Positions 39,496 to 64,000 of a stretch of DNA of 64,000 nucleotides are shown here, piece after piece. The position numbers and the translations under genes are program-made. How positions within the stretch are numbered: the stretch's first letter is position 1; the number at the start of each line of letters is the position of its first letter. The stretch is from Zopfochytrium polystomum. Its lineage: Eukaryota; Chytridiomycota; Chytridiomycetes; Chytridiales; Chytridiaceae. The DNA lies in assembly GCA_025765615.1 (NCBI GenBank), contig JAIVFJ010000159.1:88642-152641 (forward strand). The letters are read 5' to 3'. The notes beneath the pieces are model-generated. The model was not told the DNA's origin, made no database searches, and was given only the letters and a program-made list of their open reading frames with translations.

Positions 39496-39820
39496 AGGTT
39501 ACCCTCAGACGATGAAAGAGATACCCTGTCAGCGACAGAAATGTTTTTGACTAGGAAACAGACAAAGTACGTCAGTTGCTGCACGTATCATAGGTGGAGG
39601 AGTCTGTCTGCAAAGGAGAGAGACAGTTAGGACCATAATACTCATTGCTACTTATATCAATAATCATAGTATGTTTGAAATTTAGCATAGAGGTTGATCC
39701 AGCATGTGTGCATCTGTGGACACCTCATTTGTTTAAATCTGTTCACTGATCAGCTAACACCAATCTGGCATTGAACAAAACTCAAGCAAAATGTTATGAA
39801 TCACCCTCTGGAAACCTCTG

Positions 39821-39996
39821 GAACCTTCTAGAACATTCCTTCATGGAACCTTCTGGAACCTTCTGGAACCTTCTAGAACATTCCTTCATGGAACCTTGTG
39901 GAACCTTCTGGAACCTTCTTTGCTTTCCTGACTTGTCTTGTTGTCATTGGTATCATTGGTATCATTGCATTACTAATTGCTCTTTCTGGAACTTTC
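39821..39996 (+). promoter_or_regulatory. Heat-shock-element array in the LTR U3 region
   Basis: Alternating GAA and TTC triplets at exact 5-bp steps form four blocks: 39821-39838 (4 pentamers, GAACCTTCTAGAACATTC), 39846-39883 (8 pentamers), 39891-39918 (6, one degenerate to TTG) and 39984-39996 (3). The metazoan and fungal HSF site is three or more inverted nGAAn pentamers, so this is a very strong predicted HSF platform. It lies 33-210 bp upstream of the TATA box. Confidence 0.75.
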
Positions 39997-40028
39997 TTGG
40001 AGTCTTGACAAGGAACACTCTCAAAAGG

Positions 40029-40036
40029 TATAAAAG
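40029..40036 (+). promoter_or_regulatory. TATA box of the chromovirus LTR
   Basis: TATAAAAG, 116 bp before the LTR end and downstream of the heat-shock-element arrays. The same site is at 56387 in copy 2. Confidence 0.75.
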
Positions 40037-40184
40037 GGGGATGGGGGACCTGTCCCATCCCTCAAGTGAATTATTGTTTCCAATACAATCATCACTCCTC
40101 TCAGTTCCTTGTCTGCCTTGTCCTGTCCTGCCCTGTTCCTGACATCATAATTCACTTCACCCTCTCCCACTACTCTCTGCCATC

Positions 40185-41108
40185 ATGTCTGACCCAAACA
40201 ACACCTTCCCTGATGCAACTGCCTTCCAAGCCTTGATGGACCAATTACAAGCCCTCTCAAGACAGACACACCAACTTCAAGAACAAGTCCTTCACCAGCA
40301 GCACCAGCTTCAACAACAACTTCACCAACAAGAACATCAAGCTCTTCCCCTGCCTCAAGCCAACCAAGCAAGAGAGCCCAAGGTTCCCAGCCCTGACAAG
40401 TTCACTGGGCTGGCCAAAGACCTTAGGAACTTCATGGCCACTGTGGAGAATGTCATCCTTCTCCAACCTTCAAGATTTCCCAGTGAGCAAGTCAAGGTTC
40501 TTTTCACAAGCACCCTCCTGTCTGGTCAAGCTCAATCATGGTACAGATCTCTCCCAAGCACACCCACCACCCTGCAAGAGCTCTGGGAGGGGCTGGAAGC
40601 TACCTTTGGTGACCCCTACGCATCTTGGACAGCAAGATCCAAGCTCAAGCATATCAAGCAAGGAAAGCAATCTTGTGTGGCCTACACCAACCAATTCAAG
40701 CAACTAGCCAGAGACTCTGGATACAATGATGCAGCTCTGATGGAGCTGTACCATGATGGTCTCCATGAGTCTATCCAAGACATGCTCTCCCAGTCTCTGC
40801 ACATCCCTGAGACCTTGGAAGAGTACATTCTCCTTGCCATCAAGATTGACAACAGACTCTACTCCAAGAGGCTGAAGCAAAGACAAGTAGGAACTACATC
40901 AAGACCTACCCCAGTTCCTCAAGCTCTTACAGTTCCTGAACCCATGCAAGTGGATGCAGTTGAGACACTTCCTAAGGGTCCTCTGAGCCAAGAGGAGAAA
41001 ACAAGGAGGGCCCAGCAGGGACTGTGTTTTTACTGTGGCTCCAAGGAGCATGCTGTCAAGGACTGCCCAAGGAAGAAGCACCCAAACTCCCAGGTCCAGG
41101 CTCACTGA
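40185..41108 (+). CDS. Chromovirus copy 1 Gag
   Basis: 307 residues, identical in sequence to the Gag of copy 2. Capsid-like helical region (residues about 65-220, with WYRSL and LWEGLEATFGDPY motifs of the Ty3 Gag family) follows a Gln/His-rich N-terminus. A single zinc knuckle, C-x2-C-x4-H-x4-C, lies at residues 281-294 (CFYCGSKEHAVKDC). It forms the virus-like particle and binds genomic RNA. Pol overlaps its 3' end in the -1 frame. The ATG is 40 bp after the LTR. Confidence 0.93.
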   Translation: MSDPNNTFPDATAFQALMDQLQALSRQTHQLQEQVLHQQHQLQQQLHQQEHQALPLPQANQAREPKVPSPDKFTGLAKDLRNFMATVENVILLQPSRFPSEQVKVLFTSTLLSGQAQSWYRSLPSTPTTLQELWEGLEATFGDPYASWTARSKLKHIKQGKQSCVAYTNQFKQLARDSGYNDAALMELYHDGLHESIQDMLSQSLHIPETLEEYILLAIKIDNRLYSKRLKQRQVGTTSRPTPVPQALTVPEPMQVDAVETLPKGPLSQEEKTRRAQQGLCFYCGSKEHAVKDCPRKKHPNSQVQAH

Positions 41109-44100
41109 GGGGCAATTCCCTGGACCCTCCTCCAAGCTGCCCCTGTTTCATCACCACCACCAGCACCACAAACACCTCAGATTCCAAGCCCCACCAACTC
41201 ACCATGGATGTCAAGATTCAACTCTCACCCAAGTCAACCATCACAACCAAGGCCCTTATAGACTCTGGATCATCCTGCAACATCATTGATGCCACCCTTG
41301 CCAAGTCTTGTGCCATTCCTACGATCAAGAAATCCACACCCCTCAAGGTCCACTTTGCCAATCATGCTCTGTTCAAGGAAATCAGCCATGAAACCAAGCT
41401 AAACCTCCACATCCAAGACTTTCCACCATCCATGGTCAATCTGGAAGTATTGGATCTTGGCTCACCCACATTCTCTGTCATCCTGGGATTACCATGGCTG
41501 CAAGCCCAGAACCCTGCCATTGATTGGGTCACTGGTCAAGTCCAACCTCCACCAATCGGAACAGTCACCCAAAACTCAAGTCAAGCCCCCAAGTCTCATG
41601 CTCTCAAGCCCTTGATTCAAGATTCACAGCCAGCCAAGACTCAAGTTCCACAGTTCACAGTTCACAGTCAAGATTCAAGTAGAGCTCATAGAGCTCACAG
41701 TCATGGCCATGACTCTTGTTCACAGAACCCACAGTCAAAGATTCAAGTACCACAGTTCACAGTCCACATTCAAGATTCAAGTTCCACAGCTCACAGTCTT
41801 TGCCAAGAACAGAACTCTCAGTCAAAGATTCAAGAATCACAGTTCCCAGTCAAGAATTCAAGCCCCACTGCTGAGGAGCACGACAACCTGGACCCATCAG
41901 ACCTTTTGCTGGCATCCAAGCTACCAAAAGAATATCTCCCTTATGCTGATGTGTTTTCCAAGACCAAGGCAGACCTGCTACCAGCTCAGAGGCCTTATGA
42001 CTGTGAAATCCCACTCAAGGATGAAACTTGCAGCCCACCTTTCAAGCCACTGTACCACCTCTCTCCACCAGAAGCCAAGGCCCTCCAAGAATACATTGAA
42101 GAAATGCTGAACAAGGGATTCATCCAACCTTCCAAGTCACCAGCTGGAGCTCCCATCTTTTTTGTCAAGAAGAAGGATGGGGGACTGAGACCCTGTGTGG
42201 ACTACAGAGATCTCAATGAGATGACAGTCAAGAACCGCTATCCACTGCCTCTCATCTCTGAATTACTGGACAAACTGAGCCATGCAAGGATATTTTCCAA
42301 GATTGACCTCAGAGGTGCCTACAATTTGGTCAGAATTAAGCCCCAGGATCAATGGAAGACTGCCTTCAGATGCAAATACGGTCACTTTGAGTACTTGGTC
42401 ATGCCCTTTGGACTTACCAATGCTCCAGCTATTTTCCAAGGCATGATGAATGACATCTTCAGGGATATTCTGGACCTTTTTGTCATTGTCTACCTGGATG
42501 ATATCCTGGTATTTTCATCTGACACTGCAAGCCATATGGGACATGTCAAGACTGTCTTGGAGAGACTCAGACAGCATCACCTCTATGCAAAGCTGGAGAA
42601 GTGTGAATTCCACAAGACCTCCATTGAGTTTTTGGGGTTCATTGTGTCTGACAAAGGGATCTCCATGGCACCAGACAAGATCCAAACTATTCTTGAATGG
42701 AAGGCTCCAAATTCCATCAAGGATGTTCAAAGCTTCCTTGGATTTTGCAACTTCTACAGAACCTTCATTGCCAACTATTCTGCCATAGCCAAGCCTCTCA
42801 CTGATCTCACCAAGAAGACCACCAAGTTTGAATGGACCCCAGCAGCAGAGCAAGCCTGGCTAGCTCTTAAGACAGCAACCACAAGTGCACCACTCCTTAA
42901 GCATGTGGATCCCTTGCTTCCCTTCACCTTGGAAACTGATGCCTCAGACTATGCCCTCTGGCGCTGTTCTGTCCCAGCCAAGCTCTCAGGAACCCTCTGC
43001 TCCTCTGCATCCAGTGGCATATTACTCCAGGAAGCTGAACAGTGCTGAGTGTAACTACACAGTCCATGACAAGGAGTTGCTTGCAATTGTGGAAGCATTC
43101 AAATTCTGGAGACACTACTTGGCTGGTTCTAAAGGCATCTCTGTCTATTCTGATCACAAGAACCTCACCTTCTTCAGGGCAAGGAGGTTGCTCAAGCAGA
43201 GGCATGCCAGGTGGGCTGAACTGCTCTCTGAGTATGACTTTAAGCTGTGCTATTCTCCCTGGCCACCTTAACACTGTGGCTGATGCCCTGTCAAGAAGAA
43301 CAGACCTTGCACCTGAAGGGGGAGATGGTTTCACCCCACCATCCAAGACACACCTTTCATTGCTTCCTGACAGTGTGTGGGCCCATGCTATTTCCAAGGA
43401 CCCCAAGCCTCACAAGATTCAAATCAGCCAAGAAGAGGAAAAACTTGAGATACTCAAGACAAGGCATGATGCAGCAACAGCTGGACACCCAGGAGAGCAC
43501 AAGACATATGAGCTTGTTTCCAGAGACTTCTACTGGCCAGGCATGAGGAAGTACATCAAGAACTATGTCAGCAGCTGTGAAACCTGTCAAAGAAACAAAT
43601 CCAGCAGACACAAGCCCTATGGACTTCTGGAGCCCCTCCCAATTGCCATCAGCCCTTGGTCATCAATATCCATGGACTTCATTGTGAAACTGCCCCCATC
43701 CCATGGATTTGACTCTATCCTTGTTGTCATCTGCAGAAGGACAAAGTTGGCCCATTTCATCCCCTGCACTGAGAATATAGATGCACAAGGAACAGCAGAC
43801 CTGTTTTTGCAGCACATATTCAGGCTCCATGGGCTGCCTCAGTCAATCATCAGTGACAGAGGACCTCAGTTCAGATCTCAATTTTGGAAAGCACTCACAA
43901 CAGCCCTTGGAATCAAGTCTCAACTGTCAACTGCTTATCACCCTCAGACTGATGGACAAACAGAAAGAACAAACCAGACTCTGGAGCAGTATTTGAGGTG
44001 CTATGTCAGCTATCAACAGGATGATTGGCCCACCCTCCTTCCGCTGGCAGAATTTGCTCTCAACAATTCTCTCCACTCAAGCACCCAGCTATCTCCTTTC

Positions 44101-44745
44101 TTTGCAACCTATGGCTTCAATCCAAGAGGAGATCTTTTGGGACAAGAGACCCTATCCAATGTCCAAGCTCCTGCTGTGGCTTCACACTTGCATAAGCTCA
44201 AGATCATCAGCACCTTCCTGGACTCCACCCTGAAGCAAGCCCAAGAAGATGCCTCAAGATTCGCCAACACTCACAGAATGGACCATGACCTTGCTGTGGG
44301 TCAGCAAGTTTGGCTTCTGAGGAAGAACTTGCAGACCAAAAGACCAAGTCCCAAGCTAGACAACCTCAAGTTGGGACCTTTCAAGATCTTGGAGCAAATC
44401 AATCCAGTCACCTTCAAGCTGGATCTCCCTGCATCCATGAAGATCCACCCAGTTTTCCATGTCAGCCTTTTGGAGAAGTTTGTGGCCAATTCCATTCCAG
44501 GCAGAGTTGTTCCTCCTCCTCCTCCAGTTGAGGTAGAAGGTGAAGAGGAATTTGAGGTTGAACAAATCTTGGATGCCAAGTGGTTTGGAAGGACACTCAA
44601 GTTCCTTGTTAAGTGGAAAGGTTACTCAGATGCTGACAACACCTGGGAACCTGAGTCAAACCTCACTCACTGCCAAGACCTTCTGCTCAAGTTCAAGACC
44701 AGGTACCCCACCAAGTTGCAGAAGAGGCCTAAAAGGGGGAGATGA
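41024..44745 (+). pseudogene. Chromovirus copy 1 Pol, broken in RNase H
   Basis: Open from 41024 to 43048 (protease DSG, reverse transcriptase YLDD), then the correct reading continues in another frame to 44745 (integrase and chromodomain). Comparison with copy 2 shows an inserted base near 42958 (CTCTGGCGCTG against CTCGGTGCTG) and another near 43254 (TCTCCCTGG against TCCCCTGG). The two are in the same direction and do not restore the frame, so the copy cannot make full Pol. Confidence 0.93.
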
Positions 44746-45107
44746 TGTTATGAATCACCCTCTGGAAACCTCTGGAACCTTCTAGAACATTCCTTCATGG
44801 AACCTTGTGGAACCTTCTGGAACCTTCTGGAACCTTCTAGAACATTCCTTCATGGAACCTTGTGGAACCTTCTGGAACCTTCTTTGCTTTCCTGACTTGT
44901 CTTGTTGTCATTGGTATCATTGGTATCATTGTATTACTAATTGCTCTTTCTGGAACTTTCTTTGAGTCTTGACAAGGAAGACTCTCAAAAGGTATAAAAG
45001 GGGGATGGGGGACCTGTCCCATCCCTCAAGTGAATTATTGTTTCCAATACAATCATCACTCCTCTCAGTTCCATGTCTGCCTTGTCCTGTCCTGCCCTGT
45101 TCCTGAC
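44746..45107 (+). repeat. 3' LTR of chromovirus copy 1
   Basis: 362 bp, differing from its own 5' LTR by one extra 10-bp heat-shock-element unit, several substitutions and loss of the last A. It begins one base after the pol stop codon. Confidence 0.93.
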
Positions 45108-46401
45108 CTAAGGGATCAATTCCAGTTTGATTTTTCTAAATTTTTCTACAATGTAGCCATCAGTGGTCAACCGTTATAGACTACATCCAGGTATCACCGC
45201 AGCAAACCCACCTCATGCACTACAGACTTACAGTGACCATCTTCTCTTGCACTTCGCCTGCACCACCGCAAGCCCTAACCGCCAACTGCTCAACGACCCC
45301 ATTGCAATCCCCCAGGGAAAGTGCCCTGCATTTCGTTTCAAGCCTTCGGAGGATGTCGCCTTGACGGCAGCGACGCCCCAACAGGTCCTCCACACCACCG
45401 CGGCTGCAGGGTTCTGCCAGAACGCTGCATACAGTGCCACCACCACCACCACCACCACCACCACCACCACCACCACTACGGACCGCAGCGGAGAGGCAAC
45501 GCCCGCCCGACGCTCCCTGGCATATGCTGCACCCTTGAGGCCGATGCTGTGGACGACCTTTTTGGCCGCCCACACCGCCCACTGGGCAGCCATTGTTCTG
45601 GACCCACCTACCCCACTCGGTGTTAGCTCCCTAACCCCCGGCGGGAATGATGGGCGTGCGACCCCCAGGGCAAAAGTAGCGCCTTACGGGATGGAATGGA
45701 ACGGGATGCGCACGCGACGGCGAGGGGTGGGGGGCGCGGGCGACGACGGGAAGGTGGGAATGTGAGTGTTAAGAGAGGGATTGTAGTTGAGGGAGAGAGC
45801 GAGAGGGAAAAAAGAAAACAACCACCAAGAAAATGAAGAAAACGGGCGCGTCTGGCCGTCCGCCATGAGGAAGAAAGAAAAGAAACGAAAAGCGGAGGAT
45901 CCATGGAGCACATCCCCAGCCCGCGTCTACTAACCCCTCCCGTGCACCTATCTAGCTTCTCTCCGCCCGACCTGTAAGGTTTGACTCCTTGGGTCAGGTG
46001 TGCAGGGACGGCATCGATGTCTCTCTTCGCTCCGAACCGCCGGGCCAGAAATTAATTAGGAGGGACTCTCATATGCACAACCATTAGCCACAACTCTCTC
46101 TCCTGGTAATAGCAGAAGAGAGCCAGGGAGGGACGGCGATCACAAGCCAACAGAAAAATACTCAGTTGCCCTACGCGACGCGACGGGAGCGCGACGCGAC
46201 TGGAAGAACGACGCGTACCATTATTCGACCTGAATCGACGCACGCGCAATTGACGCGTGCCGGCGTAGCGCTCTGTCACAGATTACCAAATCACACTGAA
46301 AATCCAGCGACCCCCCGAAAACCCACCGACAACGAGGGCAGCGAGCAAGACGACGACGACGAACGACGTACGCCCTGAGCTCCACCTGTGCAGTGCCAGC
46401 A
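45108..46401 (+). other. Intergenic region with a doubtful open frame
   Basis: An open frame at 45163-45765 (200 residues) runs through a (CCA)n tract encoding polythreonine. It resembles no family I know, and frames on the opposite strand are equally open, so it is probably not a gene. The region immediately follows the chromovirus and leads to the cyclic-nucleotide-binding gene. Confidence 0.35.
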
Positions 46402-53908: not shown

Positions 53909-54170
53909 TGTCAGGAACAGGGCAGGACAGGACAAGGCAGACAAGGACTGAGAGGAGTGATGATTGTATTGGAAACAATAATTCACTTCAGGGATGGGAC
54001 AGGTCCCCCATCCCCTTTTTATACCTTTTGAGAGAGTTCCTTGTCAAGTCTCAAAGAAAGTTCCAGAAAGAGCATTTAGTAATACAATGATACCAATGAT
54101 ACCAATGACAACAAGACAAGTCAGGAAAGCAAAGAAGGTTCCAGAGGAATCCAGAGGGTGATTCATAACA
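53909..54170 (-). repeat. LTR of chromovirus copy 3, heat-shock-element array lost
   Basis: 262 bp, against 353 in intact copies. The missing sequence is the phased GAA/TTC array; only one GAACCTTC remains. The TATAAAAAG box is retained. Confidence 0.88.
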
Positions 54171-56149: not shown

Positions 56150-56502
56150 TGTTATGAATCACCCTCTGGAAACCTCTGGAACCTTCTAGAACATTCCTTC
56201 ATGGAACCTTCTGGAACCTTCTGGAACCTTCTAGAACATTCCTTCATGGAACCTTGTGGAACCTTCTGGAACCTTCTTTGCTTTCCTGACTTGTCTTGTT
56301 GTCATTGGTATCATTGGTATCATTGCATTACTAATTGCTCTTTCTGGAACTTTCTTGGAGTCTTGACAAGGAACACTCTCAAAAGGTATAAAAGGGGGAT
56401 GGGGGACCTGTCCCATCCCTCAAGTGAATTATTGTTTCCAATACAATCATCACTCCTCTCAGTTCCTTGTCTGCCTTGTCCTGTCCTGCCCTGTTCCTGA
56501 CA
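56150..56502 (+). repeat. 5' LTR of chromovirus copy 2
   Basis: 353 bp with the same heat-shock-element arrays as copy 1 (offset 16358 bp) and TATA box at 56387. Confidence 0.95.
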
Positions 56503-56542
56503 TCATAATTCACTTCACCCTCTCCCACTACTCTCTGCCATC

Positions 56543-57466
56543 ATGTCTGACCCAAACAACACCTTCCCTGATGCAACTGCCTTCCAAGCCTTGATGGACC
56601 AATTACAAGCCCTCTCAAGACAGACACACCAACTTCAAGAACAAGTCCTTCACCAGCAGCACCAGCTTCAACAACAACTTCACCAACAAGAACATCAAGC
56701 TCTTCCCCTGCCTCAAGCCAACCAAGCAAGAGAGCCCAAGGTTCCCAGCCCTGACAAGTTCACTGGGCTGGCCAAAGACCTTAGGAACTTCATGGCCACT
56801 GTGGAGAATGTCATCCTTCTCCAACCTTCAAGATTTCCCAGTGAGCAAGTCAAGGTTCTTTTCACAAGCACCCTCCTGTCTGGTCAAGCTCAATCATGGT
56901 ACAGATCTCTCCCAAGCACACCCACCACCCTGCAAGAGCTCTGGGAGGGGCTGGAAGCTACCTTTGGTGACCCCTACGCATCTTGGACAGCAAGATCCAA
57001 GCTCAAGCATATCAAGCAAGGAAAGCAATCTTGTGTGGCCTACACCAACCAATTCAAGCAACTAGCCAGAGACTCTGGATACAATGATGCAGCTCTGATG
57101 GAGCTGTACCATGATGGTCTCCATGAGTCTATCCAAGACATGCTCTCCCAGTCTCTGCACATCCCTGAGACCTTGGAAGAGTACATTCTCCTTGCCATCA
57201 AGATTGACAACAGACTCTACTCCAAGAGGCTGAAGCAAAGACAAGTAGGAACTACATCAAGACCTACCCCAGTTCCTCAAGCTCTTACAGTTCCTGAACC
57301 CATGCAAGTGGATGCAGTTGAGACACTTCCTAAGGGTCCTCTGAGCCAAGAGGAGAAAACAAGGAGGGCCCAGCAGGGACTGTGTTTTTACTGTGGCTCC
57401 AAGGAGCATGCTGTCAAGGACTGCCCAAGGAAGAAGCACCCAAACTCCCAGGTCCAGGCTCACTGA
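56543..57466 (+). CDS. Chromovirus copy 2 Gag
   Basis: 307 residues, same as copy 1 Gag, with the zinc knuckle at 281-294. The pol frame begins before its stop, in the -1 frame; the overlap from the first pol-frame ATG is 85 nt. A cysteine-rich stretch CTGTGTTTTTACTG in the overlap is the only run resembling a slip site, and it does not match the standard X-XXY-YYZ pattern in the gag frame. Confidence 0.95.
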   Translation: MSDPNNTFPDATAFQALMDQLQALSRQTHQLQEQVLHQQHQLQQQLHQQEHQALPLPQANQAREPKVPSPDKFTGLAKDLRNFMATVENVILLQPSRFPSEQVKVLFTSTLLSGQAQSWYRSLPSTPTTLQELWEGLEATFGDPYASWTARSKLKHIKQGKQSCVAYTNQFKQLARDSGYNDAALMELYHDGLHESIQDMLSQSLHIPETLEEYILLAIKIDNRLYSKRLKQRQVGTTSRPTPVPQALTVPEPMQVDAVETLPKGPLSQEEKTRRAQQGLCFYCGSKEHAVKDCPRKKHPNSQVQAH

Positions 57467-60400
57467 GGGGCAATTCCCTGGACCCTCCTCCAAGCTGCCC
57501 CTGTTTCATCACCACCACCAGCACCACAAACACCTCAGATTCCAAGCCCCACCAACTCACCATGGATGTCAAGATTCAACTCTCACCCAAGTCAACCATC
57601 ACAACCAAGGCCCTTATAGACTCTGGATCATCCTGCAACATCATTGATGCCACCCTTGCCAAGTCTTGTGCCATTCCTACGATCAAGAAATCCACACCCC
57701 TCAAGGTCCACTTTGCCAATCATGCTCTGTTCAAGGAAATCAGCCATGAAACCAAGCTAAACCTCCACATCCAAGACTTTCCACCATCCATGGTCAATCT
57801 GGAAGTATTGGATCTTGGCTCACCCACATTCTCTGTCATCCTGGGATTACCATGGCTGCAAGCCCAGAACCCTGCCATTGATTGGGTCACTGGTCAAGTC
57901 CAACCTCCACCAATCGGAACAGTCACCCAAAACTCAAGTCAAGCCCCCAAGTCTCATGCTCTCAAGCCCTTGATTCAAGATTCACAGCCAGCCAAGACTC
58001 AAGTTCCACAGTTCACAGTTCACAGTCAAGATTCAAGTAGAGCTCATAGAGCTCACAGTCATGGCCATGACTCTTGTTCACAGAACCCACAGTCAAAGAT
58101 TCAAGTACCACAGTTCACAGTCCACATTCAAGATTCAAGTTCCACAGCTCACAGTCTTTGCCAAGAACAGAACTCTCAGTCAAAGATTCAAGAATCACAG
58201 TTCCCAGTCAAGAATTCAAGCCCCACTGCTGAGGAGCACGACAACCTGGACCCATCAGACCTTTTGCTGGCATCCAAGCTACCAAAAGAATATCTCCCTT
58301 ATGCTGATGTGTTTTCCAAGACCAAGGCAGACCTGCTACCAGCTCAGAGGCCTTATGACTGTGAAATCCCACTCAAGGATGAAACTTGCAGCCCACCTTT
58401 CAAGCCACTGTACCACCTCTCTCCACCAGAAGCCAAGGCCCTCCAAGAATACATTGAAGAAATGCTGAACAAGGGATTCATCCAACCTTCCAAGTCACCA
58501 GCTGGAGCTCCCATCTTTTTTGTCAAGAAGAAGGATGGGGGACTGAGACCCTGTGTGGACTACAGAGATCTCAATGAGATGACAGTCAAGAACCGCTATC
58601 CACTGCCTCTCATCTCTGAATTACTGGACAAACTGAGCCATGCAAGGATATTTTCCAAGATTGACCTCAGAGGTGCCTACAATTTGGTCAGAATTAAGCC
58701 CCAGGATCAATGGAAGACTGCCTTCAGATGCAAATACGGTCACTTTGAGTACTTGGTCATGCCCTTTGGACTTACCAATGCTCCAGCTATTTTCCAAGGC
58801 ATGATGAATGACATCTTCAGGGATATTCTGGACCTTTTTGTCATTGTCTACCTGGATGATATCCTGGTATTTTCATCTGACACTGCAAGCCATATGGGAC
58901 ATGTCAAGACTGTCTTGGAGAGACTCAGACAGCATCACCTCTATGCAAAGCTGGAGAAGTGTGAATTCCACAAGACCTCCATTGAGTTTTTGGGGTTCAT
59001 TGTGTCTGACAAAGGGATCTCCATGGCACCAGACAAGATCCAAACTATTCTTGAATGGAAGGCTCCAAATTCCATCAAGGATGTTCAAAGCTTCCTTGGA
59101 TTTTGCAACTTCTACAGAACCTTCATTGCCAACTATTCTGCCATAGCCAAGCCTCTCACTGATCTCACCAAGAAGACCACCAAGTTTGAATGGACCCCAG
59201 CAGCAGAGCAAGCCTGGCTAGCTCTTAAGACAGCAACCACAAGTGCACCACTCCTTAAGCATGTGGATCCCTTGCTTCCCTTCACCTTGGAAACTGATGC
59301 CTCAGACTATGCCCTCGGTGCTGTTCTGTCCCAGCCAAGCTCTCAGGAACCCTCTGCTCCTCTGCATCCAGTGGCATATTACTCCAGGAAGCTGAACAGT
59401 GCTGAGTGTAACTACACAGTCCATGACAAGGAGTTGCTTGCAATTGTGGAAGCATTCAAATTCTGGAGACACTACTTGGCTGGTTCTAAAGGCATCTCTG
59501 TCTATTCTGATCACAAGAACCTCACCTTCTTCAGGGCAAGGAGGTTGCTCAAGCAGAGGCATGCCAGGTGGGCTGAACTGCTCTCTGAGTATGACTTTAA
59601 GCTGTGCTATTCCCCTGGCCACCTGAACACTGTGGCTGATGCCCTGTCAAGAAGAACAGACCTTGCACCTGAAGGGGGAGATGGTTTCACCCCACCATCC
59701 AAGACACACCTTTCATTGCTTCCTGACAGTGTGTGGGCCCATGCTATTTCCAAGGACCCCAAGCCTCACAAGATTCAAATCAGCCAAGAAGAGGAAAAAC
59801 TTGAGATACTCAAGACAAGGCATGATGCAGCAACAGCTGGACACCCAGGAGAGCACAAGACATATGAGCTTGTTTCCAGAGACTTCTACTGGCCAGGCAT
59901 GAGGAAGTACATCAAGAACTATGTCAGCAGCTGTGAAACCTGTCAAAGAAACAAATCCAGCAGACACAAGCCCTATGGACTTCTGGAGCCCCTCCCAATT
60001 GCCATCAGCCCTTGGTCATCAATATCCATGGACTTCATTGTGAAACTGCCCCCATCCCATGGATTTGACTCTATCCTTGTTGTCATCTGCAGAAGGACAA
60101 AGTTGGCCCATTTCATCCCCTGCACTGAGAATATAGATGCACAAGGAACAGCAGACCTGTTTTTGCAGCACATATTCAGGCTCCATGGGCTGCCTCAGTC
60201 AATCGTCAGTGACAGAGGACCACAGTTCAGATCTCAATTTCGGAAAGCACTCACAGCAGCCCTTGGAATCAAGTCTCAACTGTCAACTGCTTATCACCCT
60301 CAGACTGATGGACAAACAGAAAGAACAAACCAGACTCTGGAGCAGTATTTGAGGTGCTATGTCAGCTATCAACAGGATGATTGGCCCACCCTCCTTCCAC

Positions 60401-61101
60401 TGGCAGAATTTGCTCTCAACAATTCTCTCCACTCAAGCACCCAGCTATCTCCTTTCTTTGCAACCTATGGCTTCAATCCAAGAGGAGATCTTCTGGGACA
60501 AGAGACCCTATCCAATGTCCAAGCTCCTGCTGCGGCTTCACACTTACATAAGCTCAAGATCATCAACTCCTTCCTGGACTCCACCCTGAAGCAAGCCCAA
60601 GAAGATGCCTCAAGATTTGCCAACACTCACAGAATGGACCATGACCTTGCTGTGGGTCAGCAAGTTTGGCTTCTGAGGAAGAACTTGCAGACCAAAAGAC
60701 CAAGTCCCAAGCTAGACAACCTCAAGTTGGGACCTTTCAAGATCTTGGAGCAAATCAATCCAGTCACCTTCAAGCTGGATCTCCCTGCATCCATGAAGAT
60801 CCACCCAGTTTTCCATGTCAGCCTTTTAGAGAAGTTTGTGGCCAATTCCATTCCAGGCAGAGTTGTTCCTCCTCCTCCTCCAGTTGAGGTAGAAGGTGAA
60901 GAGGAATTTGAGGTTGAACAAATCTTGGATGCCAAGTGGTTTGGAAGAACACTCAAGTTCCTTGTTAAGTGGAAAGGTTACTCAGATGCTGACAACACCT
61001 GGGAACCTGAGTCAAACCTCACTCACTGCCAAGACCTTCTGCTCAAGTTCAAGACCAGGTACCCCACCAAGTTGCAGAAGAGGCCTAAAAGGGGGAGATG
61101 A
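57382..61101 (+). CDS. Chromovirus copy 2 Pol with C-terminal chromodomain
   Basis: 1239 codons in one frame. In order: aspartic protease (ALIDSGSS, Asp80), reverse transcriptase (KIDLRGAYN; YLDD at 490-493), RNase H (ETDASDYAL, Asp639), integrase zinc finger (H-x5-H..CETC, near 820-850), integrase core (SMDFIVK, VSDRGPQF, TDGQTERTNQTLEQY) and a chromodomain at about 1178-1228 (FLVKWKGYSDADNTWEPESNL). RT-RNaseH-IN order and the chromodomain define a Ty3/gypsy chromovirus. The chromodomain should steer insertion toward methylated histone H3. All key catalytic residues are present. The true start is a Gag-Pol fusion, so the ATG is nominal. Confidence 0.96.
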   Translation: MFLLWLQGACCQGLPKEEAPKLPGPGSLRGNSLDPPPSCPCFITTTSTTNTSDSKPHQLTMDVKIQLSPKSTITTKALIDSGSSCNIIDATLAKSCAIPTIKKSTPLKVHFANHALFKEISHETKLNLHIQDFPPSMVNLEVLDLGSPTFSVILGLPWLQAQNPAIDWVTGQVQPPPIGTVTQNSSQAPKSHALKPLIQDSQPAKTQVPQFTVHSQDSSRAHRAHSHGHDSCSQNPQSKIQVPQFTVHIQDSSSTAHSLCQEQNSQSKIQESQFPVKNSSPTAEEHDNLDPSDLLLASKLPKEYLPYADVFSKTKADLLPAQRPYDCEIPLKDETCSPPFKPLYHLSPPEAKALQEYIEEMLNKGFIQPSKSPAGAPIFFVKKKDGGLRPCVDYRDLNEMTVKNRYPLPLISELLDKLSHARIFSKIDLRGAYNLVRIKPQDQWKTAFRCKYGHFEYLVMPFGLTNAPAIFQGMMNDIFRDILDLFVIVYLDDILVFSSDTASHMGHVKTVLERLRQHHLYAKLEKCEFHKTSIEFLGFIVSDKGISMAPDKIQTILEWKAPNSIKDVQSFLGFCNFYRTFIANYSAIAKPLTDLTKKTTKFEWTPAAEQAWLALKTATTSAPLLKHVDPLLPFTLETDASDYALGAVLSQPSSQEPSAPLHPVAYYSRKLNSAECNYTVHDKELLAIVEAFKFWRHYLAGSKGISVYSDHKNLTFFRARRLLKQRHARWAELLSEYDFKLCYSPGHLNTVADALSRRTDLAPEGGDGFTPPSKTHLSLLPDSVWAHAISKDPKPHKIQISQEEEKLEILKTRHDAATAGHPGEHKTYELVSRDFYWPGMRKYIKNYVSSCETCQRNKSSRHKPYGLLEPLPIAISPWSSISMDFIVKLPPSHGFDSILVVICRRTKLAHFIPCTENIDAQGTADLFLQHIFRLHGLPQSIVSDRGPQFRSQFRKALTAALGIKSQLSTAYHPQTDGQTERTNQTLEQYLRCYVSYQQDDWPTLLPLAEFALNNSLHSSTQLSPFFATYGFNPRGDLLGQETLSNVQAPAAASHLHKLKIINSFLDSTLKQAQEDASRFANTHRMDHDLAVGQQVWLLRKNLQTKRPSPKLDNLKLGPFKILEQINPVTFKLDLPASMKIHPVFHVSLLEKFVANSIPGRVVPPPPPVEVEGEEEFEVEQILDAKWFGRTLKFLVKWKGYSDADNTWEPESNLTHCQDLLLKFKTRYPTKLQKRPKRGR

Positions 61102-61454
61102 TGTTATGAATCACCCTCTGGAAACCTCTGGAACCTTCTAGAACATTCCTTCATGGAACCTTCTGGAACCTTCTGGAACCTTCTAGAACATTCCTTCATG
61201 GAAGCTTGTGGAACCTTCTGGAACCTTCTTTGCTTTCCTGACTTGTCTTGTTGTCATTGGTATCATTGGTATCATTGCATTACTAATTGCTCTTTCTGGA
61301 ACTTTCTTGGAGTCTTGACAAGGAACACTCTCAAAAGGTATAAAAGGGGGATGGGGGACGTGTCCCATCCCTCAAGTGAATTATTGTTTCCAATACAATC
61401 ATCACTCCTCTCAGTTCCTTGTCTGCCTTGTCCTGTCCTGCCCTGTTCCTGACA
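61102..61454 (+). repeat. 3' LTR of chromovirus copy 2
   Basis: 353 bp, two differences from its 5' LTR, one of which (CGTGTCCC) is downstream of the TATA box. The heat-shock arrays are intact. Confidence 0.95.
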
Positions 61455-62619: not shown

Positions 62620-64000
62620 ATTCAAGTTCTTGTGGTGAAATTCACCAATGTGAATGCACATAGGAAGACGTCAAAGGGTTTTTTTGCTGGAACTTTAAGT
62701 GACTTGTCCTGGAGATCACTTTCCAGAGATGAGTTTGGTTTATTTATTGGGATAATTCTGCACATGGGGCTTGTCCAGCTTGGAGATGCTGATCTATACT
62801 GGTCAGATAATAATTTGACTGCAGCATGTACCAAATGAGCTGCATATCTCAGAACCGATTTGAGGAGATTATAAAGTACCTTCATTTCTGTGATGAAATG
62901 AATGGGTCAGCTATGACAAGCAAGACATACAAAGTTGATCTGTTCCTTGAGCTGGTGCAACAGAGCTTCCAAGCGAACTACACAGTGGGGTCTCAAATTT
63001 CAGTTGATGAAATGTTGATTGCATTCAAAGGACAACTGTCAATTCTTCAGTACATGCCTCTGAAACTCATCAAGCGTGGCATTAAAATCTTTGGTGTGAG
63101 TGATGCTCAATCCAGCTATCTTTACAACTTCGAATTCTACACTGGAAAGAGCACTAAGGCAGTGATGCAGCCTGAAGTTGGCCTGGGTGGAAGTACTGTG
63201 CTTCGATTGATTGAAAATCGTGAAGGAATCTACAGAACTGTTCTTACAGACAATTTCTTTACAAGTGTGGCACTTTCAAAAGAGCTTCTTTTGAGAAAGA
63301 CATACTTGCGAGGTACAATACGTGATAATCGAAAAGGGTTTCCAGCATCTGCAAAGTTTCAAAATGGGAGCCACAATACATTCACAAATATTCCATGATG
63401 GATGTGGAAGGAGGTGTTTTTTGTCAGGAACATGGCAGGACAAGGCAAGGCAAGGCAGAGAAGGAACTGAGAGGAGTGATGATTGTATTGGAAACAATAA
63501 TTCACTTGAGGGATGGGACAGGTCCCCCATCGCCCTTTTATACCTTTTGAGAGTGTTCCTTGTCAAGACTCAAAGAAAGTTCCAGAAAGAGCAATTAGTA
63601 ACACAATGATACCAATGATACTAATGACAACAAGACAAGTCAGGAAAGCAAAGAAGGTTCCAGAAGGTTCCACAAGGTTCCATGAAGGAATGTTCTATAA
63701 TGTTCCAGAAGGTTCCAGAAGGTTCCATGAAGGAATGTTCTAGAAGGTTCCAGAGGTTTCCAGCGGGTGATTCATAACATTTTTGGAGTGGTTGGCTTTG
63801 TGGATAAGAGGCCATTCCACATGATTTCCACTTGTGATCAGGTTGGCTGGCCTTTCTTCCTTCAATCAATGTACTGGACAACATGACTTAGAATTTGAGA
63901 AAACTTGCACAGCTCTGGAATACAATCAGTTCATGGGTGGCATTGACCTTGTGGACCAAATGATGGGCATTTCTGGAACCCAGTGTAAAACAACAAGCAT
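62620..64000 (+). pseudogene. piggyBac-type transposase, interrupted and frame-shifted
   Basis: Frames with piggyBac (DDE_Tnp_1_7) features: FFAGTLSDLSWRSLSRDEFGLFIGIILHMG upstream (by parts), then an open stretch 62826-63398 with RFEEIIKYLHF, the first catalytic Asp in ISVDEMLIAFKG, GIKIFGVSDA and the second in VLTDNFFTS. Beyond the LTR the text resumes with FVDKRPFHMISTC and YNQFMGGIDLVDQMMG, where the third catalytic Asp lies. There are frame changes before 62826, at 63398 and after the LTR, so it is not functional. An acidic, serine-rich N-terminus (GGSDGEEDD near 62370) is typical of the family. Confidence 0.85.
63422..63779 (-). repeat. Solo chromovirus LTR inside the piggyBac gene, 5-bp duplication
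   Basis: 358 bp, reverse orientation, TGTTATGAATCACCCG to ATGTTCCTGACA on the minus strand, flanked by TTTTT on both sides (63417-63421 and 63780-63784). It retains most of the phased heat-shock-element array and a TATAAAAGG box. The internal part of the element has been removed by LTR recombination. Confidence 0.92.

Follow-up and report, generated by a model that had tools for sequence, protein, structure and literature searches.

Phased heat-shock-element arrays in the LTRs of an abundant chytrid chromovirus point to a candidate heat-shock-type promoter

Long, phased arrays of GAA and TTC triplets are present in the LTRs of a Ty3 element that is very abundant in the genome of the aquatic chytrid fungus Zopfochytrium polystomum (Chytridiomycota, Chytridiales). 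Taken as a whole, the evidence is best explained if the U3 region of this chromovirus is a heat-shock-type promoter, a reading to which we assign a probability of about 0.64 and which predicts both HSF binding and induction by heat. Because the LTR carries long rows of the signal used by heat-shock genes, stress probably switches the element on. The window analyzed here is a 64-kb stretch of DNA corresponding to bases 88642-152641 of contig C159, in an assembly of 80.2 Mb and 761 contigs.

Two elements with recognizable coding regions lie on the plus strand of the window. Element B (56150-61454) is bounded by a 5' LTR at 56150..56502 and a 3' LTR at 61102..61454, which differ at 2 of 353 positions, and contains gag (56540..57466, with a Retrotrans_gag match) and pol (57334..61101), a single open frame for protease, RT, RNase H, integrase and chromodomain. 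Searching its protein piecewise against family profiles gave matches in the order gag, aspartyl protease, RT, RNase H and integrase, with a chromodomain at the integrase C-terminus (PF00385, E=3.7e-17). Element A (39792-45108) has a 353-bp 5' LTR of the form TG...CA (39792..40144), identical to the 5' LTR of element B, a gag reading frame (40182..41108), an interrupted pol (40976..44745, frame broken near 43040) and a 3' LTR (44746..45108) with an array one 10-bp unit longer than that of the 5' LTR. The matches to RT, integrase and chromodomain support the assignment to the chromoviruses, Ty3 elements with a chromodomain, which had been proposed from the sequence alone; RT and RNase H precede the integrase, which is followed by the chromodomain, an order that places the element outside the Ty1/copia group of COPIA78. 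Neither A nor B has matching 5-bp flanks, and the two LTRs of A are unequal in array length; recombination between elements could possibly explain both observations. On the minus strand, the window contains a solo LTR (63422..63779), flanked on both sides by AAAAA, and a diverged LTR fragment (53909..54170). The solo LTR adjoins a transposase piece at 62814-63398 on the plus strand (PF13843 DDE_Tnp_1_7, E=2.5e-39), which we take to be of piggyBac type.

Strict alternating runs of GAA and TTC at 5-bp steps in the 5' LTR of element A comprise 4, 8, 4 and 3 pentamers, all on the plus strand. The distal HSE block (39811..39838) reads GAA-CTC-GAA-TTC-GAA-TTC: a strict run of four begins at 39821, and the block extends upstream to 39811 through one imperfect triplet, CTC. 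The central block (39846..39883) is a strict run of eight. The third (39891..39918) has six pentamers, of which one is imperfect (TTG), with a strict run of four from 39901. The proximal HSE (39984..39996) is a strict run of three, TTC-GAA-TTC, situated outside the tandem array and out of 5-bp register with the other runs. The sequence-only reading of this DNA had described blocks of 4, 8, 6 and 3 pentamers at exact 5-bp steps. Three of these block sizes are strict, while the six is strictly a four extended via the imperfect TTG; the exact steps are found within the runs, but do not carry over to the run at 39984. The same reading had located the arrays in further LTRs, and those at 56150, 61102 and 44746 indeed repeat the strict pattern 4, 8, 4, 3, with an additional 10-bp unit in the 44746 copy. 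The array it had noted in the solo LTR at 63422 is present as well, but partly decayed, with strict runs of 4, 5, 4 and 3. The fragment at 53909-54170 lacks the distal array, and the proximal HSE is its one remaining strict run.

Runs of at least three pentamers occur 22 times in the window, against a mean of 1.03 and a maximum of 2 in 30 first-order shuffles, where the longest run was four. When the LTR itself was shuffled 3000 times, no run exceeded four and that length came up once, compared with the observed run of eight. The arrays show the sequence pattern of HSEs, at least three alternating nGAAn/nTTCn pentamers at 5-bp steps, and are predicted to bind HSF.

The position of the arrays is that of a promoter. 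A TATA box, TATAAAAG, lies at 40029..40036 (+) in the 5' LTR of element A. The primer-binding site (PBS; 40147..40157, +), which is of the self-priming type and begins two bases past the 5' LTR, pairs at 11 of 11 nt with 40064..40074 (+), a putative transcript start 35 bp downstream of the first base of the TATA box. In the self-priming elements Tf1 and Tj1, it is the 5' end of their own RNA to which the PBS is described as being complementary (PMC4600332). Since the PBS complements 40064-40074 in the manner of Tf1-type elements, we place the inferred start of transcription at about 40064 and consequently assign everything upstream, including all of the arrays, to U3. The complementarity is that of Tf1-type self-priming provided that 40064 is the RNA 5' end; the likeness to Tf1 and Tj1 is one of self-primer logic and bears on priming, not on the heat response. 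With its HSEs placed in U3 above a TATA box, the LTR has a layout of the ONSEN kind.

Similar sites are found in promoters of the host. We compared 28 upstream regions of HSP genes: 11 of HSP20 (33 profile matches), 15 of the HSP70 family (58 matches, many of which are exons of one gene) and two of HSP90 (3 matches). C256 and C283, likely duplicates among the 13 longest HSP20 matches, and the C174 HSP70, near a contig end, were excluded. The first six HSP70 upstream regions contain one three-triplet array, with a skip allowed, against a shuffled mean of 0.52. Judged by their N-termini, four of these six genes are mitochondrial-type, one is BiP-type and one cytosolic-type, a make-up that led us to add the 22 further HSP regions. 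At 11 of 12 letters, the host HSP promoters appear to share the site type of the LTRs: a four-pentamer site at this threshold is present in 12 of the 28 regions, in 9 of 11 for HSP20, in 3 of 15 for the HSP70 family (the cytosolic-type L063, and L077 and L078) and in neither of the two for HSP90. None occurs in 51,650 bp of window background, and equal base odds give a chance expectation of 0.14 such sites in the 31 kb searched. Each of the 12 host sites has a TATA-like box 31-177 bp downstream. No site of at least 11/12 is present in the other 16 regions, among them those of both HSP90 genes, of the four mitochondrial-type HSP70 genes and of 2 of the 11 HSP20 genes; for some of these genes, the promoter possibly lies beyond the stretch examined.

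The sites of the host differ somewhat in type from those of the LTR, since none of the 28 host regions has a perfect 12/12 site and the second unit is imperfect in all 12 host sites, where it reads GTC, ATC or, in L077, TCC. The most distal unit of the LTR, GAAACCTCTGGAACCTTC, is of this imperfect host type, and its CTC is found in 24 of 32 unique U3s. The site of the cytosolic-type HSP70 gene, GAACGGTCTGGAACATTC, has two mismatches to a form seen among other copies, GAACCTTCTGGAACATTC, and one of the two falls in a spacer. In the 150 bp upstream of the 12 host sites, identity between promoters is 41-75%, apart from two pairs at 98% and one at 80%; the four-pentamer site persists although these flanks have diverged. 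An 18-bp site, GAATTGTCCAGAAACTTC, or close variants of it, is common to nine HSP20 promoters (L065, L067-L074).

The host genome encodes canonical HSF DNA-binding domains. The HSF profile gives 14 matches above the cut-off in 11 places, and all 11 places contain the recognition segment SFVRQLNMYGFHKV; the PDB chains matched by the L033 domain carry the names heat shock factor 1, 2 and 4 and heat-shock transcription factor. Three near-identical HSF-domain loci, L039, L040 and L041, have one TAG in the matched frame, perhaps a sign of an intron or a pseudogene. The 14 matches differ in sequence outside the DNA-binding domain, which would allow more than one HSF-type protein to use the site. This diversity is what speaks for an alternative that we regard as unlikely: an HSF-family protein would bind the array, but the signal would not be heat, the protein being a paralogue or another HSF-domain protein that drives the element under oxidative stress or during growth, encystment or spore formation. 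However, the nearest counterparts found in the host are the promoters of HSP20 and HSP70, which are the classical heat-induced set.

The array pattern is abundant genome-wide. The perfect four-pentamer site GAANNTTCNNGAANNTTC occurs 7,339 times in the genome, compared with 10 occurrences of a reversed-pattern control, and the spacer letters at the matches listed, all from one contig, are typical of the LTR. Restricting the perfect four-pentamer site to forms in which A follows the first GAA gives 34 matches in forward and 41 in reverse orientation (control 1 and 4). Six of these were inspected as candidate host HSEs: five are LTR copies of the family, and the sixth, L123, is without an LTR landmark. 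Exact-anchor patterns, outside which the 173-bp class falls, count 27 LTRs with short tracts (38 or 48 bp in nearly all), 847 with intermediate tracts (mostly 83 bp among the first 100 listed) and 850 with long tracts (mostly 128 or 138 bp among the lengths listed). By tract length, then, almost every LTR counted has several HSE blocks. Among the first 100 listed per class, 8 intermediate and 18 long same-strand pairs have a spacing of 4,880-4,980 bp, which fits full-length elements. The LTR used as query is identical over 379 bp in 27 of 40 scored copies, itself included, and slightly different in the other 13, so the long class holds a very young burst; because the seed was a long-class LTR, this copy search does not rank the classes by age. 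LTRs in one orientation and at equal steps at C6:359824-372508 (3171 bp), C11:158372-168276 (4952 bp) and C18:60775-67979 (3602 bp) suggest tandem chains of elements that share LTRs.

Array length varies in discrete steps. Several searches yielded 69 candidate LTRs, a non-random sample from which 67 U3s were cut. Strict pentamers in runs of at least three total 3, 7, 11, 19 or 27 in 52 of the 67 U3s, forming classes of rising length; the remaining U3s listed have other totals, from 4 to 16. Of the 67 U3s, 66 were measured for tract length: 60 have 37, 47, 72, 82, 127, 137 or 172 bp, in 5-bp steps, and six have off-step lengths of 48, 70, 71 or 81 bp; a different landmark makes these lengths one base shorter than the class names. 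A distal strict run of at least three is kept in 62 of the 67 U3s and the proximal run of three in 63 of 67, the sample being non-random. The pentamers are therefore not absent from the wider family; it was their absence that the sequence-only reading had named as counting against it. Five sampled copies are the most diverged (L120, L121, L127, L129 and L141); their spacers have changed and most triplets are kept. We also considered short arrays as the ancestral state and rejected this, as these five copies already carry a second GAA/TTC stretch; the short class may instead consist of contractions.

Comparison of 39 of the 67 U3s, from the intermediate and diverged classes and representing 32 unique sequences, indicates that triplets vary less than spacers. 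Minority letters occupy 13 of 1,019 triplet cells versus 34 of 620 spacer cells, with 8 of 280 in off-phase array columns and 87 of 4,400 in the rest of U3. A variant shared by at least two sequences is found in 1 of 33 triplet columns, 6 of 20 spacer columns and 17 of 140 columns in the rest of U3. The difference between triplets and spacers has p=0.009; against the rest of U3, the triplets reach significance only when one triplet column is omitted (p=0.045, compared with p=0.20 for all columns). Because the sequences share descent, and because shuffling of units can inflate the variation in spacers, we treat the triplet conservation as supportive, not decisive. Together with the HSP promoter sites above TATA and the canonical HSF segments, it makes the proposed identity of the arrays as HSEs well supported at the level of sequence.

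Tandem Repeats Finder reports the array tract as a repeat of 10, 35 and 45 bp, which makes the arrays a minisatellite as well. In principle the tract could be nothing else: a neutral repeat of 10/45-bp units, located where U3 is dispensable and matching HSEs incidentally. It is genuinely tandem, its length varies by repeat-unit steps as slippage or unequal exchange would yield, and part of the spacer variation is explicable by unit shuffling. We nevertheless find this improbable. A random 10-bp unit would contain GAA and TTC so arranged in only ~0.24% of cases (10/4096), the proximal site is kept although it lies outside the repeat, host HSP promoters show the same pattern, and the most diverged sampled copies altered their spacers while retaining most triplets. 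The matching host promoters, the promoter position, the separate conserved proximal site and the triplet conservation make a real HSF-responsive promoter the simplest account. Very improbable is a role as decoy or silencing target, with HSEs that mainly titrate HSF or recruit host repression: the 847 and 850 exact-anchor LTRs with intermediate and long tracts would form a large potential HSF sink, but the arrays are in promoter position upstream of TATA and the family has very recent copies.

Under the heat-shock-type promoter reading, host HSF trimers would bind the HSE arrays cooperatively upstream of the TATA box when the cell is under stress. This binding would drive synthesis of an element RNA starting ~35 bp below the TATA box, the 5' end of which would double as the self-primer when the RNA is reverse-transcribed. 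Array length would have changed mostly through gain and loss of repeat units of 10 bp and 45 bp, with the result that sampled LTRs mostly hold 3, 7, 11, 19 or 27 strict pentamers, and longer arrays may have helped amplification. A broader scenario is tentative, and we would put the odds against it: capture of HSF might power the success of the element, in that selection for transcription built the ladder of HSE blocks, long-array lineages gave rise to the large and very young burst, the element came to hold nearly all perfect HSEs of the genome, and heat both mobilizes it and lets it compete for or rewire the host heat-shock response.

Several known elements offer comparisons. ONSEN/COPIA78 and other heat-responsive COPIA elements of Brassicaceae carry HSF sites in their LTRs; a strong four-pentamer COPIA site is described as arising by duplication of a proto-site, and several families as having gained such sites (PMC5059998). 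ONSEN is a plant COPIA element with a four-pentamer site, whereas the chytrid element is a Ty3 chromovirus in which several blocks together hold as many as 27 strict pentamers. By analogy, the chytrid element would work like ONSEN, with a predicted heat response, while belonging to a different superfamily; the ONSEN parallel drawn from the sequence alone is thus apt, and further precedents exist besides. In Cryptococcus, TCN12, with one putative HSE in its LTR, and TCN3, with two, are LTR elements mobile at 37 °C (PMC12810828). Like the chytrid element they are fungal LTR elements with putative HSEs, but from another genus, and the available parts of that source describe no long arrays. The same paper, from 2026, presents transposon activation by heat shock via host machinery as still undescribed in fungi (PMC12810828). 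Helitrons of Caenorhabditis bear HSEs, and transposons are reported to carry 61.4% of the HSEs in C. elegans, densely clustered and with demonstrated HSF-1 binding (PMC6927752). Helitrons are nematode DNA transposons with HSEs outside LTR promoters, while the chytrid HSEs are in the LTR promoter. The terminal repeat of DIRS-1 from Dictyostelium is said to hold heat-shock promoter sequences; DIRS-1 is a tyrosine-recombinase element, whereas the chytrid element is Ty3. MAGGY from Magnaporthe oryzae is a chromovirus. This fungal LTR element is reported to be stress-responsive, reacting to heat shock and to copper stress, in a paper whose main text contains neither 'heat shock element' nor 'HSE' (PMC3978060). 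The bamboo Ty3 elements PHRE1 and PHRE2 have been studied under heat, and the term HSE is likewise absent from the main text (PMC8656106). In the literature searched, we found no paper on the chytrid element; two papers mention its host species.

The chytrid element is a high-copy, HSE-dense candidate for a heat-activated transposon in an early-diverging fungal phylum, and its natural LTR variants with rising numbers of HSEs form a ready dose-response series. If the heat-shock-type promoter reading is true, HSF would have been recruited convergently by fungal Ty3 and plant COPIA elements, and warming or stress would be linked to the growth of chytrid genomes.
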